Source: Zetaproteobacteria bacterium CG_4_9_14_3_um_filter_49_83
GTDB lineage: Bacteria; Pseudomonadota; Zetaproteobacteria; Mariprofundales; Mariprofundaceae
DNA length: 34,241 bases
Assembly: GCA_002791545.1 (NCBI GenBank)
Contig: PFXG01000003.1
Coordinates: 1-34,241 of the forward strand
Direction: 5' to 3'
Shown: positions 28,047 to 34,241 of the stretch, piece by piece
How the letters are laid out: every line of letters begins with the position of its first letter
Numbering within the stretch: position 1 is the stretch's first letter
Notes under the pieces: generated by a model
Seen by the model: the letters and a program-made list of their open reading frames with translations, nothing else
What the model was told of the DNA's origin: nothing
The model's database searches: none
Translations under genes and position numbers: made by a program

Positions 28047-28860
28047 AAAGTTACGTCGTCAGTACCGTTCCACGTTGATTCACTGGTTACGTCCGGGCAA
28101 AACCACGCAGGAACTGCAACATGTTCTGCAACATGCCGAGGCTATTCAGTCCGATGAGCAGCGGCGGATGTTTGAAGATATCGTCGAATTTCGTGAAACA
28201 CGTGTGCGCGAAATCATGGTGCCACGTTCGGATATCTATAGCATTGATCTGCATGCAGGCATTGAACAGGCCGAAGCCAAGATGCTTGAGTATCATGTCA
28301 AAAAGCTGCTGGTTAGCGATGGCGACCTTGACCACATTGCCGGCTTCATTGATATCCGGGATGTATTACACGCCCATCGCAGCAATGAATTGATTGATCT
28401 GGCCAGCCTCATCCGCCCCTGCCTGAAAGTATCCGAGCTTGAGCATATTCCCGGACTGCTTAACAAAATGAAAACAGGCAGCCATATAGCTGTCGTACGC
28501 GATGAATTCGGTGGCACGGCCGGTCTGGTTACTTTATCCGATCTGCTTGAAGAAATTGTCGGCGATATCGGGCAGGGCCAGTCCACCGATGATTCCGAAT
28601 GTGTTCAAACGGATTCCGGCTGGGAAGTGCTGGCCAAAATGCATGTCGAGGATCTGGCTGATGTGCTTCGTATTGAGTTGCCAGAAGGTGATTACGACAC
28701 AGTCGGCGGACTCATCACCACTGATCTTGGCCGCATTCCCGTTCGCGGTGAACGCTTACTGGTTGCCGGACTCGACATTCATATCAAGGAAGCTGATCCG
28801 CGCAGAGTGATTCGGGTGCTCATCCGCTCCGCTTCTGTTGAGCCTACCGACAACGCGTGA
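28039..28860 (+). CDS. corC: CorC/YbeX family protein with CBS pair
   Basis: 273 aa. Two CBS domains cover about residues 60-180, starting with REIMVPRSDIYSID and ending in the DLLEEIVGDI block. The CorC/HlyC transporter-associated domain fills the C-terminus. No membrane segments are present, so this is the soluble CorC/YbeX type. In E. coli it is linked to cobalt/magnesium homeostasis and, through its operon, to ribosome metabolism. It overlaps lnt by GTGA. Confidence 0.94.
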   Translation: MFKKLRRQYRSTLIHWLRPGKTTQELQHVLQHAEAIQSDEQRRMFEDIVEFRETRVREIMVPRSDIYSIDLHAGIEQAEAKMLEYHVKKLLVSDGDLDHIAGFIDIRDVLHAHRSNELIDLASLIRPCLKVSELEHIPGLLNKMKTGSHIAVVRDEFGGTAGLVTLSDLLEEIVGDIGQGQSTDDSECVQTDSGWEVLAKMHVEDLADVLRIELPEGDYDTVGGLITTDLGRIPVRGERLLVAGLDIHIKEADPRRVIRVLIRSASVEPTDNA

Positions 28861-30413
28861 ACCTGACGTTCCTCTCACCAGCAAGCGATCATCATTATAA
28901 GTTTAATTTAAGACTGCTGACGGCCTTTATCTGCGGCGCCTGCATGCAATTTTCATTCGCGCCACTGCAATGGTCATGGCTGGGTGTGATTGCTATCGCT
29001 ATCTGGGCTTCGCTGTTGTGTCGGGCCCTCAGCCGTCAACAGGCCCTCTGGCTGGGCCTGTCTTTCGGTTTTGGCTGGTTTTCTGTCGGGGCATGGTGGT
29101 TATCGGTAACCGTACACGATTATGGTGGATTACCGTGGTTCGTCGCTGCCTTGTGTGTCGTCCTGACGGGTAGCGTACTATCTTTATTTGCTGGCCTGTG
29201 GGGCTGGCTCTCGCATCTTCTGGCCCGTTCAAATCCCTGGTCATGGTTTTTCGCTTTTCCTGCCATGGCTATACTGAGTGAATGGTTACGCGGGCATCTC
29301 TTTTCCGGCCTGCCATGGACAGCGCTGGGTAATCTCACGCTTGATTCACCGTGGTCTGCATGGGCAAGCGTTCTTGGTGTTTATGGCACAGGCTTATTCC
29401 CGGCCTTAGCTGCCTTTTCTCTGGCTGCCTTATTCCATCGTCCATTCCTGCTACCGGGACTGACAGGCTTGTTTCTGCTGCTCCTGAGCTCTGTATTTCC
29501 ACCAGCCATTTCAGACTTATCTAACACTGCGACTTACCGGGCGGCGCTGATTCAGGCAAGTATCCCGCAGGATCAAAAGTGGGATGCCGCTTTTTTGCAG
29601 GAAACCATGCTGCGTTATACCCGCTTATCTAATCAGGCTACTGAGGCTGACATCATCATCTGGCCGGAATCGGCTGTTCCATTTTTTCTTGAGCTGGCTC
29701 CCGACTGGTCGAACTGGCTCGACAACAATGTTCGCCAATGGAACAAACCCCTGTTCTTTGGCGGCATGAAGCTTGGTGAAGCGATATCGTCCGGAGACGC
29801 ACAACAGCAAGCTGAAAACGGGCTGTTTTTATTTGAACCGGTGCAAAACAGTACGATTATTCAAAAATCCTTTGCCGGTAAACATCATCTTGTTCCATTC
29901 GGCGAATATGTGCCGTCGTGGATTCCCTGGTTGCATACACTGGTTCCGGCCATTGCCAGCTTTCAACCCAGCAATGACGACGGCGGCGTCATCTGGCAGG
30001 GCCAGCATTTTGGCGCATTAATCTGTTATGAATCTATTTTCCCTGAAGAAGCCCGCCACCGCGTACTGCACGGCGCTCAGGTGCTGGCTATCGTCACCAA
30101 TGATGCCTGGTACAACAAGACACCCGCCGCATGGCAACATTTGCAGGCCTCGCGAATGCGGGCCATTGAAACAGGCCGCTTTGTACTGCGGGCTGCCAAT
30201 AGCGGCGTCTCTGCCATCATCGATCCGGCCGGCGACATTCAGGTTACAGCCCCATGGTGGACCCAGCGTGTTATTCAGGGTGATTATCATCTTTCCGATC
30301 ACATCACGCCCTATGTTCGCCGGGGCGATATGCCAAGTTTGGCAGCAGCACTGTTCATGCTTATGATAGGCCGATGGATACGACGCAGAGACACTTCATC
30401 ATACGCCGGGTAA
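28857..30413 (+). CDS. lnt: Apolipoprotein N-acyltransferase Lnt
   Basis: 518 aa. The start is GTG at 28857, overlapping the corC stop. Several hydrophobic segments occupy about residues 18-215, and the nitrilase-type periplasmic domain follows. The catalytic triad is E271 (WPESAVP), K342 (GKHHLVPFGEYVP) and C390 (ICYESIFPE), in agreement with E. coli E267/K335/C387. It acylates the N-terminal Cys of lipoproteins after LspA has acted. Confidence 0.96.
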   Translation: MNLTFLSPASDHHYKFNLRLLTAFICGACMQFSFAPLQWSWLGVIAIAIWASLLCRALSRQQALWLGLSFGFGWFSVGAWWLSVTVHDYGGLPWFVAALCVVLTGSVLSLFAGLWGWLSHLLARSNPWSWFFAFPAMAILSEWLRGHLFSGLPWTALGNLTLDSPWSAWASVLGVYGTGLFPALAAFSLAALFHRPFLLPGLTGLFLLLLSSVFPPAISDLSNTATYRAALIQASIPQDQKWDAAFLQETMLRYTRLSNQATEADIIIWPESAVPFFLELAPDWSNWLDNNVRQWNKPLFFGGMKLGEAISSGDAQQQAENGLFLFEPVQNSTIIQKSFAGKHHLVPFGEYVPSWIPWLHTLVPAIASFQPSNDDGGVIWQGQHFGALICYESIFPEEARHRVLHGAQVLAIVTNDAWYNKTPAAWQHLQASRMRAIETGRFVLRAANSGVSAIIDPAGDIQVTAPWWTQRVIQGDYHLSDHITPYVRRGDMPSLAAALFMLMIGRWIRRRDTSSYAG

Positions 30414-30417
30414 CGCA

Positions 30418-31434
30418 ATGACACATACAATGGCAATATCCTCCCGCGAACCGGTTTGCGTGTGGGGTGCCGGCTCCTGGGGAACCGCACTGGCGATGGT
30501 GCTGTCGCGCCATGGGCGGCCGGTTCAGCTGATTGCCCGCACCGATGAAAAAGCAGCTCGTATGCAACAAGCCCGACAAAATGCCGACTATCTTCCCGGC
30601 ATCCGTTTTCCCGACAGCTTACAGGTCACTGCGGATACAGCGGCAGCCATCGCTCTAAGTGCCGCCATTGTTGTAGCGCTTCCGTGTAGCGCCGCAGCCA
30701 GGGAATTATCGCAACTGGATACCGGAAATGCGCCCGTCATCACGGCCTGCAAAGGTCTCGACCCGAACACGCTGGAGCGCGTCGATGACTGGTTGATCCG
30801 CATCGTCGGCGCTGATCGAGCCGTACTCCTGTCCGGTCCCTCATTTGCGCTGGATGTGGCACAAGGTAAACCCACTGCATTAACCATGGCAGCCGCCGAT
30901 GCATCACTGGCGCGGCGCGCTGCATCCTTTTTCGACGACAGCAGTTTCCGCATCTATACCAGTATTGACGTCACCGGTGTGGCGCTGGGTGGCGCGCTGA
31001 AGAATGTAATCGCTATTGCCGCAGGCATTGCCGAAGGTCTTGATCTGGGGCATAACGCCAGTGCGGCTCTGGTAACGCGTGGCATTGTGGAGATTTCGAG
31101 GCTGGCCGTTGCCTGCGGCGGCAAGCAGGAAACGCTTAATGGTCTGTCCGGTCTGGGTGATCTGGTGCTCACCTGTACGGGCAATTTGTCGCGCAATCGC
31201 AAACTCGGCATGGCGCTGGCTCAGGGTATGAGCCTGGATGAAGCACGCGCTTTTGTCGGTCAGGTGGTGGAAGGCGAACGTTCAACCGCCGCAGCCTGCC
31301 TACTGGCCCAACAGCGCGGTATTGAAATGCCGATTGCCAACAGTGTGCTGGCTGTGCTGCAAGGCCAAATGTCTCCGGTGATGGCCGTCCAGTCATTGTT
31401 GTCGCGACCTGAGCGGCATGAATCAATCACCTGA
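30418..31434 (+). CDS. gpsA: Glycerol-3-phosphate dehydrogenase [NAD(P)+] GpsA
   Basis: This enzyme reduces DHAP to glycerol-3-phosphate for phospholipid synthesis. 338 aa. The Rossmann motif is WGAGSWGTALA. The catalytic Lys lies in GGALKNVIAIAAGI, near residue 195, and LSGLGDLVLTCTG is the typical C-terminal block. It starts 4 nt after lnt. The first ATG at 30418 gives a small N-terminal lead; the ATG four codons later is also possible. Confidence 0.96.
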   Translation: MTHTMAISSREPVCVWGAGSWGTALAMVLSRHGRPVQLIARTDEKAARMQQARQNADYLPGIRFPDSLQVTADTAAAIALSAAIVVALPCSAAARELSQLDTGNAPVITACKGLDPNTLERVDDWLIRIVGADRAVLLSGPSFALDVAQGKPTALTMAAADASLARRAASFFDDSSFRIYTSIDVTGVALGGALKNVIAIAAGIAEGLDLGHNASAALVTRGIVEISRLAVACGGKQETLNGLSGLGDLVLTCTGNLSRNRKLGMALAQGMSLDEARAFVGQVVEGERSTAAACLLAQQRGIEMPIANSVLAVLQGQMSPVMAVQSLLSRPERHESIT

Positions 31435-31440
31435 TTTCTG

Positions 31441-31968
31441 ATGACCTCCAGCGACGACTTGTTTCAACAGGCCATGGCAGCGGTCACACCGATTGAAGCA
31501 CCGAAAAAAGTTCAGGTAAAAAAAACGGCCAAACGACATTTATCAGTTCACCCCCCACTAACACCGGCCTACCGACCTTCTGAACCCAAACACCACTCGG
31601 CTCCCGTTCGAATCACCCATGACACCCTTCTGGCCAACGGCATTTCGCAGGAACGATTAAAACGTCTGGCCGGTGGCGAACCGCCCATCGATTTCGAGCT
31701 TGATCTGCATGGCTGTAATCGGGATCGATCACTGGAATTGCTGGATACCTGCGTATCCCGCATGCTGCAAGAAGGGCAGCGCGTGCTTTGCATTGTTCAC
31801 GGACGCGGCCTCCACTCCTCCGAGCAAACGCCGGTGCTGAAGCAAACAGTATACCAATGGCTACAATCCGGCCCGGCCAACCATGAAATTCTGGCAACCA
31901 TCCCCAAACCCGGCACCCGTGGCGGCTCATGTCTTGTCATGCTGCGGCGGCAAAAAGATCAGTACTAA
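31441..31968 (+). CDS. Smr-domain protein (DNA/RNA endonuclease type)
   Basis: 175 aa. The N-terminal ~80 residues are basic and low-complexity. The Smr domain follows with FELDLHGCNRDRS, CIVHGRGLHS and the C-terminal GTRGGSCLVMLRR. SmrA/SmrB-like proteins cut nucleic acid, and SmrB acts on collided ribosomes; which subtype this is remains open. It starts 6 nt after gpsA and ends the operon. Its TAA stop (31966-31968) lies exactly at the outer edge of the integron attC site, so the last codons are also the array boundary. Confidence 0.9.
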   Translation: MTSSDDLFQQAMAAVTPIEAPKKVQVKKTAKRHLSVHPPLTPAYRPSEPKHHSAPVRITHDTLLANGISQERLKRLAGGEPPIDFELDLHGCNRDRSLELLDTCVSRMLQEGQRVLCIVHGRGLHSSEQTPVLKQTVYQWLQSGPANHEILATIPKPGTRGGSCLVMLRRQKDQY

Positions 31969-32050
31969 CGTCGCAATTCACCGGCGGCAAAAGCCAAAGC
32001 GAGGAACGAGCGGCGCTTTTTGCCGTCCGAGTGAAATTGCCTTGTTAAGC
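31963..32050 (-). other. attC site 1 (terminal, against smr)
   Basis: On minus, R'' is GCTTAAC (32044-32050) and the terminal box is GTTAGTA (31963-31969). The arms GCAATT-CAC-CGG-CGGCAAAA (left) and their complement on the right are identical except for four extra bases in the right arm, the extrahelical bases that attC sites use for strand choice. The R'' box contains the stop codon of the cassette A gene, and the other end contains the complement of the smr stop. Confidence 0.88.
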
Positions 32051-32554
32051 AATTTCCTGTGGCCGGCTTTTTCCTCCGGATAACGCCCAACGAAGAAATT
32101 TTACCCACCATGACCATTCTGAAACTGTTGGCGTAAGGTTGAGCCGTAGTTCAGCAAAGCAAAGTGAATCTTCGATTAAAGCATCGTGCAGCGGACGAAA
32201 TATCAATGGCCACGATAGTTGCGCGATTCCATGCGTGTTCATCTTCAACGTCTCACGCAGCTCCGTTTTATCTTTTTCCAACTCGAAGACATCATACCCA
32301 TGAAAGCCGTCAAAGCCACTCGGTCCCGTAAATCGAAACACAACCCGTTTTCCGGGCACATATTCTTCGACGAAATATCGAATCGGACCGTGCCCACCGT
32401 TGGCGGAAACGGCAAGTGGTTTATCGAATTTCATTCGAGGCCAAAGCTGGTGAGGCCACAACAAATCGTTTTTTGACGATAGTGTATCAACCAAGCGACC
32501 GACTTCGGCTGATGCGACTGGGTACTCACGTCTATGAACGTTGATAACCTTCAT
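32045..32554 (-). CDS. Cassette A: SRPBCC/START-like protein
   Basis: 169 aa, cytosolic, no signal peptide. The pattern of a ligand-binding SRPBCC fold is visible: an early WPHQLWPRMKFDKPL segment, a strand-rich middle (YFVEEYVPGKRVVFRF, YDVFELEKDKTELRETL) and a C-terminal helix (LIFRPLHDALIEDSLCFAEL). Catalysis is not evident and the ligand is unknown. The TAA stop lies inside the attC1 R'' box, and the ATG is about 16 nt after the cassette start, with a weak AGAAAG upstream. Expression would depend on a promoter in the array or at attI. Confidence 0.75.
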   Translation of the reverse strand: MKVINVHRREYPVASAEVGRLVDTLSSKNDLLWPHQLWPRMKFDKPLAVSANGGHGPIRYFVEEYVPGKRVVFRFTGPSGFDGFHGYDVFELEKDKTELRETLKMNTHGIAQLSWPLIFRPLHDALIEDSLCFAELRLNLTPTVSEWSWWVKFLRWALSGGKSRPQEIA

Positions 32555-32564
32555 TGTCTTTCTA

Positions 32565-32634
32565 GCCTAACGTCCAAGCTCAGGGGCGCTGCGCAGCTTT
32601 ATCGCGTAGCGTCCCTTGGAGCGCAGTGTTGGGC
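32565..32634 (-). other. attC site 2
   Basis: 70 bp. R'' is GCCCAAC (complement of 32628-32634) and R' is GTTAGGC (complement of 32565-32571), both matching consensus. The arms GCTC-AGGGGCGCT and AGCGTCCCTTGGAGC pair with one G-T and two extra bases. The size is typical of short attC sites. Confidence 0.92.
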
Positions 32635-32640
32635 CACGGC

Positions 32641-33120
32641 TCACAACGAAACCTTCAGCTTGCGGCCACCGCTTATGGCAAACCCCTCACGCTCATAGAA
32701 CGCCAAAGTTCTGTCGAACTGCGGAAGCGGAGGGGTCGTAACCTCTAATCGTGTCCAGCCTCGCGATGAACCAAAAGCCTTCGCTTTAGATACGAGGTGA
32801 AGCCCCAATCCATTTGCGCGGTGCTCGGGCCGAACGTATAACTCGGGAATAGTGCCGAATGCGCCCTCAGCGTATAGAGCGTAGCTTTCATACAGAGCTA
32901 TAAACCCTGCCGGGTTTCCACTCGCGCTGCGAGAGACGAACACGAAATATTTCTCTTGATTGAGGAAGTCAGTAAGTCTGGATGTGGTTTCAGCAAGGTC
33001 AAAGTTGAACGCTTGAATACCAATGGCGTTCATGATTTCGGCCAGCAATTCGCCAACCATCTCAGCGACTTCCGGTGCGTCGCTTGCGGTTGCTTTTTGG
33101 ACAGTGAACTCTGTACTCAT
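32641..33120 (-). CDS. Cassette B: GNAT family N-acetyltransferase
   Basis: 159 aa. The acetyl-CoA-binding motif A is YVRPEHRANGLGLHLVSKAK, preceded by GFIALYESYALYAEGAFGTIPEL, and motif B ends in AFYEREGF, as in GNAT enzymes. The substrate is unknown; the architecture resembles small-molecule or antibiotic acetyltransferases but is not diagnostic. No good ribosome-binding site precedes the ATG. Instead a two-codon frame (ATG AAA TGA) overlaps the start codon by ATGA, which may allow coupled initiation. The stop lies 6 nt before the attC2 R'' box. Confidence 0.92.
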   Translation of the reverse strand: MSTEFTVQKATASDAPEVAEMVGELLAEIMNAIGIQAFNFDLAETTSRLTDFLNQEKYFVFVSRSASGNPAGFIALYESYALYAEGAFGTIPELYVRPEHRANGLGLHLVSKAKAFGSSRGWTRLEVTTPPLPQFDRTLAFYEREGFAISGGRKLKVSL

Positions 33121-33128
33121 TTCATGTG

Positions 33129-33197
33129 GCCCAACGCCTAGCTCACCCGACGAAAACCGCGAAGCGGTTTTTGGTCGGGTGGAGCGCCGTGTTAGAA
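33129..33197 (-). other. attC site 3
   Basis: 69 bp. R'' is TTCTAAC (complement of 33191-33197, one mismatch to consensus) and R' is GTTGGGC (complement of 33129-33135). The arms GCTC-ACCCGACGAAAACCGC and GCGGTTTTTGGTCGGGTGGAGC pair almost fully with a GAA loop and an unpaired base. Confidence 0.92.
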
Positions 33198-33204
33198 GCT
33201 ATTT

Positions 33205-34035
33205 TCATAGTTGCGCCAAATTGGTTATAAGGTTGTAAGTAAACCAACCATCACCAGTTTGGAATGATTGCGGTTTAGCCGTCTGTGCGTCTCTTTGAAC
33301 GCCTATGCCATCAGAAAACGGTTCAAATGCGACAATCTTGTTAAATGCAATGCGGAACATTTTTGATGGGCCTGCAAAATAGATATGTTTATTCGTAATA
33401 CCTAGAAGCCCTGTATCGGCATGAATTGTTTCAGAGGTTTGCACTCTCTCACCTTTAAAGGCGCCTGTTCTGTAATACAAACCTTTGGCAATACGAATGC
33501 TCACGCCCTGAGAACCACCAACATATCTTGTTCTGGTTTTTTCTTCATAGTAGTTGACGTTTTGAAAAACCCAGACAACCTTTTCCGTTTTTTGCAAATT
33601 AAAAGGCAAGTCGCCGTCTACTTTCATACGCTCTGGCAAGTTACCGTCCATGATGTCACGTAGAACAGCACCTTTTACTAGTTTTGAATACGAACCAGTT
33701 CTATCAAGAGCTTGTTGAGATAAGCCAAAATGCTCTTTCAGCTCACTGAGTGCCGTTTCCTCTTGCTCGGAGAGCAAGCCATCATCAAATGCAAGTTCAA
33801 CTGCTTTTTCCCATCCAGAGGCAACTAATGCCCTCAACGATTCAGAGTCAACAAAGCTGTTTGCTGCAACTTGCTCAATTGAGCTTTCCAAGTGCTTCAG
33901 ATCTCCGCCCTCAGAACCAACCTTACCAACAAGGGAAACAATTTCAGACTTTCCTTGATCGTGTTTCTGTTTGCATTCCTTGTGTGTTTTTCTCAAAAAT
34001 CCGGCAGGTTTGCCACAGTAAATACAGTTTCCCAT
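33205..34035 (-). CDS. Cassette C: zinc-ribbon protein with TerB-like helical and PH/GRAM-like domains, unknown function
   Basis: 276 aa, no signal peptide or membrane segment. The N-terminus is a small zinc ribbon (NCIYCGKPAGFLRKTHKEC; three Cys and one His as candidate ligands). A helical middle with AFDDGLLSEQEETALSELKEHFGLS resembles the TerB/acidic-helix type. The C-terminal ~120 residues are strand-rich with LLGITNKHIYFAG and FRIAFNKIVAFEPF, a pattern of PH/GRAM-like domains that bind lipid or protein. I do not recognise a characterised homologue. The ATG has AAGGAG 6 nt upstream, the best ribosome-binding site of the array. By eye it is more AT-rich than the core genes, which suggests foreign origin. 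The stop is 7 nt from attC3. Confidence 0.85.
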   Translation of the reverse strand: MGNCIYCGKPAGFLRKTHKECKQKHDQGKSEIVSLVGKVGSEGGDLKHLESSIEQVAANSFVDSESLRALVASGWEKAVELAFDDGLLSEQEETALSELKEHFGLSQQALDRTGSYSKLVKGAVLRDIMDGNLPERMKVDGDLPFNLQKTEKVVWVFQNVNYYEEKTRTRYVGGSQGVSIRIAKGLYYRTGAFKGERVQTSETIHADTGLLGITNKHIYFAGPSKMFRIAFNKIVAFEPFSDGIGVQRDAQTAKPQSFQTGDGWFTYNLITNLAQL

Positions 34036-34051
34036 TGTTTCTCCTTATTGC

Positions 34052-34156
34052 TTCTAACGCCTAGCATCAGCCGACCATTGTAGCGGTGTGAGGCTTGTGG
34101 CATTCGCCACAAACGAAACGCCGCAGAAATGGGTCGGATGAATGCAATTGTTGGAC
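34052..34156 (-). other. attC site 4
   Basis: 105 bp. R'' is GTCCAAC (complement of 34150-34156) and R' is GTTAGAA (complement of 34052-34058). The arms AGCCGACC-ATT and AATGGGTCGG pair, then AGCGG/CGCCG, and finally a GTGGC-ATTC-GCCAC tip. It is the longest of the four and belongs to the cassette that continues beyond the window. Confidence 0.87.
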
Positions 34157-34163
34157 GAACCCG

Positions 34164-34241
34164 CTATCGCGGAGAAAAAGAATTCACGCACTCAAATATC
34201 CTCCCTCTCGCCAAATCATCTAAAATGTAACTCATCTCCCT
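34164..34241 (-). CDS. Cassette D: C-terminal end of an unidentified protein (truncated by window edge)
   Basis: An open minus-strand frame enters from the right edge and gives 25 residues ending in FECVNSFSPR, with stop TAG at 34164-34166, 7 nt before the attC4 R'' box. The placement is exactly that of a cassette gene. The stop lies inside a small CCGC-TATC-GCGG hairpin. Too little is visible to name the protein. Confidence 0.55.
   Translation of the reverse strand, partial: REMSYILDDLARGRIFECVNSFSPR

Follow-up and report, generated by a model that had tools for sequence, protein, structure and literature searches.

The 34,241-nucleotide stretch of DNA that we analysed (the window) makes up the whole of contig C77 in a draft genome of 2.68 Mb and 89 contigs, and the last 2.3 kb of the window hold gene cassettes. 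We put at about 85% the probability that a chromosomal integron occupies the interval from smrA to a small conserved gene, c5, which is paired with a thiE-like gene, and that the window carries the distal portion of it. This integron would have kept its attI and lost its integrase; its other end lies on contig C19, linked to C77 by synteny across an unassembled gap. An earlier note on the window, made from the letters alone, had described an integron-type cassette array beside the housekeeping cluster lnt-gpsA-smrA (28857-31968, plus strand, identified from open reading frames, Pfam/NCBIfam matches and synteny in relatives), and the covariance-model matches, clean controls and synteny reported below bear this out. 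The cassettes of the window are genuine, and they represent ordinary integron biology in an under-studied lineage.

We searched the window with an attC covariance model, R2, trained on 22 attCs that exclude the window sites (19 near integron integrases of other genomes and three from C37 and C19 of this genome). With filters off and at E≤5, R2 gave exactly four matches across the window, all on the minus strand: attC A (31963-32050, 88 bp; E=1.4e-8, DNA fold z=-3.7), attC B (32565-32634, 70 bp; E=8.4e-6, z=-2.4), attC C (33129-33197, 69 bp; E=1.4e-5, z=-3.9) and attC D (34052-34156, 105 bp; E=0.038, z=-4.1), the last also placed by junction comparison. The earlier note had named these four positions and lengths, which R2 reproduced exactly, and had proposed a covariance model as the check on them; the model matched at all four. 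The sites have R''/R' boxes, paired arms and an extrahelical base, as attCs do, and the plus strand, which is their bottom strand, folds far more stably than shuffles in single-strand DNA folding. attC D scores poorly (E=0.038 when the window was searched and 0.3 in a larger search), probably because its outer R box comes from an IS91-family element.

The cassettes delimited by these sites each consist of one gene and an attC in the same orientation, with boundaries at G^TTRRRY. Cassette A (31969-32570, minus strand, bounds from R' boxes) carries a gene at 32045-32554 for an SRPBCC-family protein that is 51% identical to Streptomyces SRPBCC proteins. Cassette B (32571-33134, minus) encodes a GNAT acetyltransferase (32641-33120; Pfam Acetyltransf_1, E=4.6e-10). 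The product of cassette C (33135-34057, minus; gene 33205-34035, 276 aa) has no assigned function: it has no match in Pfam or NCBIfam and is 29% identical over 98% of its length to a Prevotella plasmid protein. The R'' box is complementary to the start of its own cassette at 7/7 positions for B and C, as the earlier note had seen, and at 6/7 for A. That note had counted four single-gene cassettes; they are indeed one-gene units on the minus strand, with only three complete in the window and the fourth attC lying upstream of the third gene. attC A is the terminal attC. Its R' box and the stop codon of smrA (31966-31968) overlap, the crossover point is at 31968/31969, and the distal end of the array is flush with that stop codon. 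The further suggestion that the cassettes came from several sources is consistent with our data, which do not prove it: pairwise identity among the window attCs is 67-75%, against a shuffled baseline of 64% and 80% in a homogeneous array of the relative G034, and the best plasmid homologues of the cassette products are from Prevotella, Streptomyces and Rhizobiales.

In relatives from the Mariprofundaceae, lnt-gpsA-smrA is followed by c5 and then by a second thiE-like gene. The sole c5 of this genome, together with the best match to the smrA-neighbouring thiE-like gene, is found at C19:2767-3773. As smrA and the c5/thiE-like pair adjoin in relatives, the simplest reading is that C77 and C19 are opposite ends of a single array. 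The end of the array on C19 (C19:1-2600, all on the minus strand) consists of a SIR2-like cassette, an attC (1125-1196), an enolase cassette (gene 1210-2484, minus), which would be the attI-proximal cassette of the joined array, and an 80-bp attI (2509-2588) with 89% identity to that of the intact C47 integron. This cassette holds a full enolase gene; a glycolytic housekeeping enzyme is unusual cassette content. Relatives keep smrA and c5 without these cassettes, so the locus varies by presence and absence, in the comparison with related genomes that the earlier note had suggested. We also considered a direct join of C77 to C47, the contig with intI and queG, and rejected it because queG and gpsA-smrA are far apart in the relatives G007 and G008 and because the thiE of C47 is a paralogue of the smrA neighbour.

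Taken by itself, with four attCs and no intI on the contig, the window is a CALIN, and it might have arisen by cassette insertion at a secondary, attG-like site after smrA, without ever having had an attI of its own. The overlap of the terminal R' box with the smrA stop codon is what insertion at a chance GTT would produce, and other bacteria commonly have CALINs at a distance from intI (PMC12444791). Against this, the other flank of the synteny block has a conserved attI with correctly oriented cassettes, and we regard such an origin as unlikely.

At the right end of the window, the final ~92 bp most likely represent one end of an IS91-family element and not a cassette; the transposase was seen in homologous plasmid elements. 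The 5' end of this element (34150-34241, plus strand) sits at the R'' position of attC D, and the contig ends inside it; since the window spans an entire contig, it is at this repeat that the assembly breaks the array. The outer R box of attC D (GTTGGAC, 34150-34156) is element sequence. The body and R' box of the attC D of the earlier note are native, while its outer R box is an element end; both this contig end and the attI-bearing, intI-less end on C19 were overlooked by the earlier reader. The terminal 92 bp of the window are found again at about ten other sites, on other contigs of the genome, and ten contig ends carry the matching opposite end of the element. Nine of ten copies have GTTA at the downstream junction and the other has GTTC, a fixed tetranucleotide target. 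The interiors of the copies in this genome are unassembled, and deleted internal copies on C1 and C35 preserve the start of an open reading frame with a weak Phage_int_SAM match. Among 61 genomes searched, this recombinase frame is present in this genome alone. A plasmid search with the element DNA gave no matches, and one with the frame gave none at E≤1e-5 and three weak matches at E≤10. These weak matches led to complete plasmid elements with homologous ends, in which a gene for a tyrosine recombinase precedes one for an IS91-family transposase (Y2_Tnp, Zn_Tnp_IS91), and we thus read the repeat as an IS91-family element. Viral contigs scanned with the proteins of the E. coli element gave no matches.

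Could the repeat instead be a gene cassette that IntI spread to secondary sites? The 3' end of the repeat has an attC-like fold, and every junction is at G^TT. We nonetheless hold this to be improbable, since the complete elements with homologous ends encode the recombinase and transposase and share the same type of junction and the GTTA target. Those complete elements also led us to reject the reading of the 97-bp repeat, found at ten contig ends, as a dispersed cassette or as one homogeneous family of attCs.

Judged from synteny, the order of the locus would be smrA, attC A, cassettes A, B and C, attC D, the IS91-family element, the unassembled gap, the SIR2-like cassette, attC, the enolase cassette, attI and, with no intI before it, c5. 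Cassettes are captured by attI x attC recombination, the established integron mechanism, and those of this locus would have been captured in this way while the integrase was present. Loss of intI would have followed, with attI retained. Any further exchange would now be possible only through the intact IntI of C47 or C2 acting in trans. The element would have entered the R'' core of attC D. With an R''-like box recreated by the element's own end, GTTGGAC, attC D keeps the look of a complete site.

A rival reading is a complete integron with its intI hidden in the stretch that separates C77 from C19. The gap is unsequenced, and intI genes elsewhere show that the lineage carries them. But intI normally adjoins attI, on the flank opposite the cassettes, and on C19 that position is taken directly by c5, with neither intI nor a recognisable remnant between the two; nor did our search find intI anywhere on C77 or C19. 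By the synteny-based link to C19, the locus would have an attI, with no intI beside it. We give a hidden intI very little credence. Loss of the integrase fits the state of sister loci: C47 and C2 encode an intact IntI, the IntI copy on C37 lacks the catalytic C-terminus, C10 has an attI with a 61-aa intI stub, and C48 has an attI without intI, the last two showing the same decay elsewhere in the genome. Outside the window, attCs occur on C37, C19, C48, C1, C44, C2 and C60. Among relatives, 14 of 40 have intI above the family cut-off, and some without it still hold attI-like stretches.

Chance hairpins between ordinary genes, the remaining explanation, can be set aside with near certainty: simple R''/R' scans do match elsewhere in the window, whereas R2 has no other match there and none in control DNA, and R'' matches the cassette starts; for attC A, B and C it is already refuted. 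The control comprised 188 kb from 14 loci of relatives and yielded zero matches at E≤10. In an E. coli class 1 integron unseen in training, R2 recovered the aadA1 attC and the next attC upstream. RNAalifold found no consensus structure on the attC alignment, so the 21 pairs of R2 were set by hand on the aligned attCs and then checked for covariation, which was strong (score 0.359 versus 0.134 shuffled). Pattern scanning for R''/R' as the sole attC caller was abandoned as unspecific (eight matches in the rest of the window). Rfam at gathering cut-offs reported a tRNA alone in the whole window.

The position of the element at R'' is not peculiar to attC D. On C47, C10, C48 and C37 the junctions are exactly the R'' predicted from the start of the interrupted cassette, at 7/7 positions each. 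The chance of at least four such junctions in ten at random GTTA sites is ~1e-7 if the genome has 60 attCs and 4e-10 if it has 15. On the other side of the element, attC bodies follow on C77, C44 and C1. Other copies in this genome are in ordinary sequence. Five of the six closest plasmid elements likewise lie at attC-like R'' boxes. For the element of E. coli (NZ_LT985243), joining the flanks in a script restores the canonical aadA1 attC of a class 1 integron. Those of Salinivibrio and three of Photobacterium are at attC-like R'' boxes, and that of P. ganghwense is not; at the two P. damselae sites and in P. toruni, the junction attC is read by resemblance to Vibrio-type attCs, without a model match there. 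More distant elements from alpha- and betaproteobacteria have no clear attC. As these and the other copies in ordinary sequence indicate, the preference for R'' is strong and not absolute. The element end, GTTGGAC here and GTTGAAC in its relatives, mimics an R box; judged by this resemblance, insertion of the element may reconstitute an attC. Separately, plasmid pTs485 of Thiodictyon syntrophicum has an IS91-family element with a tyrosine recombinase ~1 kb from an annotated integron integrase; the flank of that element gave no attC model match.

The IS1111-attC group, with ISKpn4, ISPst6 and their relatives, comprises insertion sequences whose target is one end of cassette attCs (PMC11187229), and the element here resembles them in this. 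Unlike them, it belongs to the IS91 family, has a GTTA/GTTC target and an R-box-mimicking end, and has complete relatives known to combine an HUH-type Y2_Tnp transposase with a tyrosine recombinase. IS91-family elements with this accessory recombinase (NZ_LT985243, NZ_CP114591) share its homologous recombinase N-terminus and ends; the copies here have no assembled interior. We lean, by a small measure, towards an IS91-family group, with tyrosine recombinase and HUH-type transposase, that prefers integron arrays, enters the R'' core of attCs and rebuilds the attC through its R''-like end, as an independent counterpart of the IS1111-attC group. ISShvi3, an IS91-like element, lies beside an attC in Shewanella, where no insertion sequence interrupting an attC was reported (PMC9229058). 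In the literature that we searched, mostly without subscription papers, we found no description of IS91-family targeting of R'', and the group has possibly gone unrecognised so far. Its targeting of attC is the part of this work most likely to interest specialists: insertion at R'' could explain how such an element enters resistance integrons without destroying the attC, as at the aadA1 attC of the E. coli plasmid.

Like known integrase-less cassette arrays, the locus has attCs with R''/R' boxes and an extrahelical base, one-gene cassettes in one orientation and no integrase; it differs in the attI retained at its inferred other end and in sister loci with intact IntI in the same genome. An array that has attI and cassettes but lacks an integrase offers a natural setting in which to ask whether a single IntI can act in trans on several arrays. 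The earlier note had found the host lineage uncertain and unlike the usual integron model organisms, and rightly so: the host is an iron oxidiser, and the named records with the closest gpsA are MAGs of the Zetaproteobacteria, family Mariprofundaceae. We found no dedicated study of integrons in Zetaproteobacteria in the literature that we searched, and the present genome adds this class, in which a genome holds several integron loci at differing stages of decay.

Several other features of these loci deserve mention. Beside the truncated intI of C37, the genes at C37:10826-12651 (plus strand) encode a type II restriction enzyme (PADLOC E=3.8e-50) and a cytosine methyltransferase (E=3e-149). Other cassettes in these arrays encode SIR2-like and superinfection-immunity/SHOCT proteins; with such content, defence-like genes seem common in them. 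On C47 (614-1621 and 1618-2754), queG apparently starts where the intact intI stops, the two overlapping, which suggests that translation of an integron integrase is coupled to that of a tRNA-modification gene. The first cassette of this intact integron (C47:92-509, 417 bp) has no evident minus-strand gene and is possibly a gene-less or promoter cassette. Finally, contig C15 of the relative G017 has two attI-plus-intI starts, at 2209 and 3015 and 806 bp apart, one with a short intI stub; this is a duplicated, decayed integron head.
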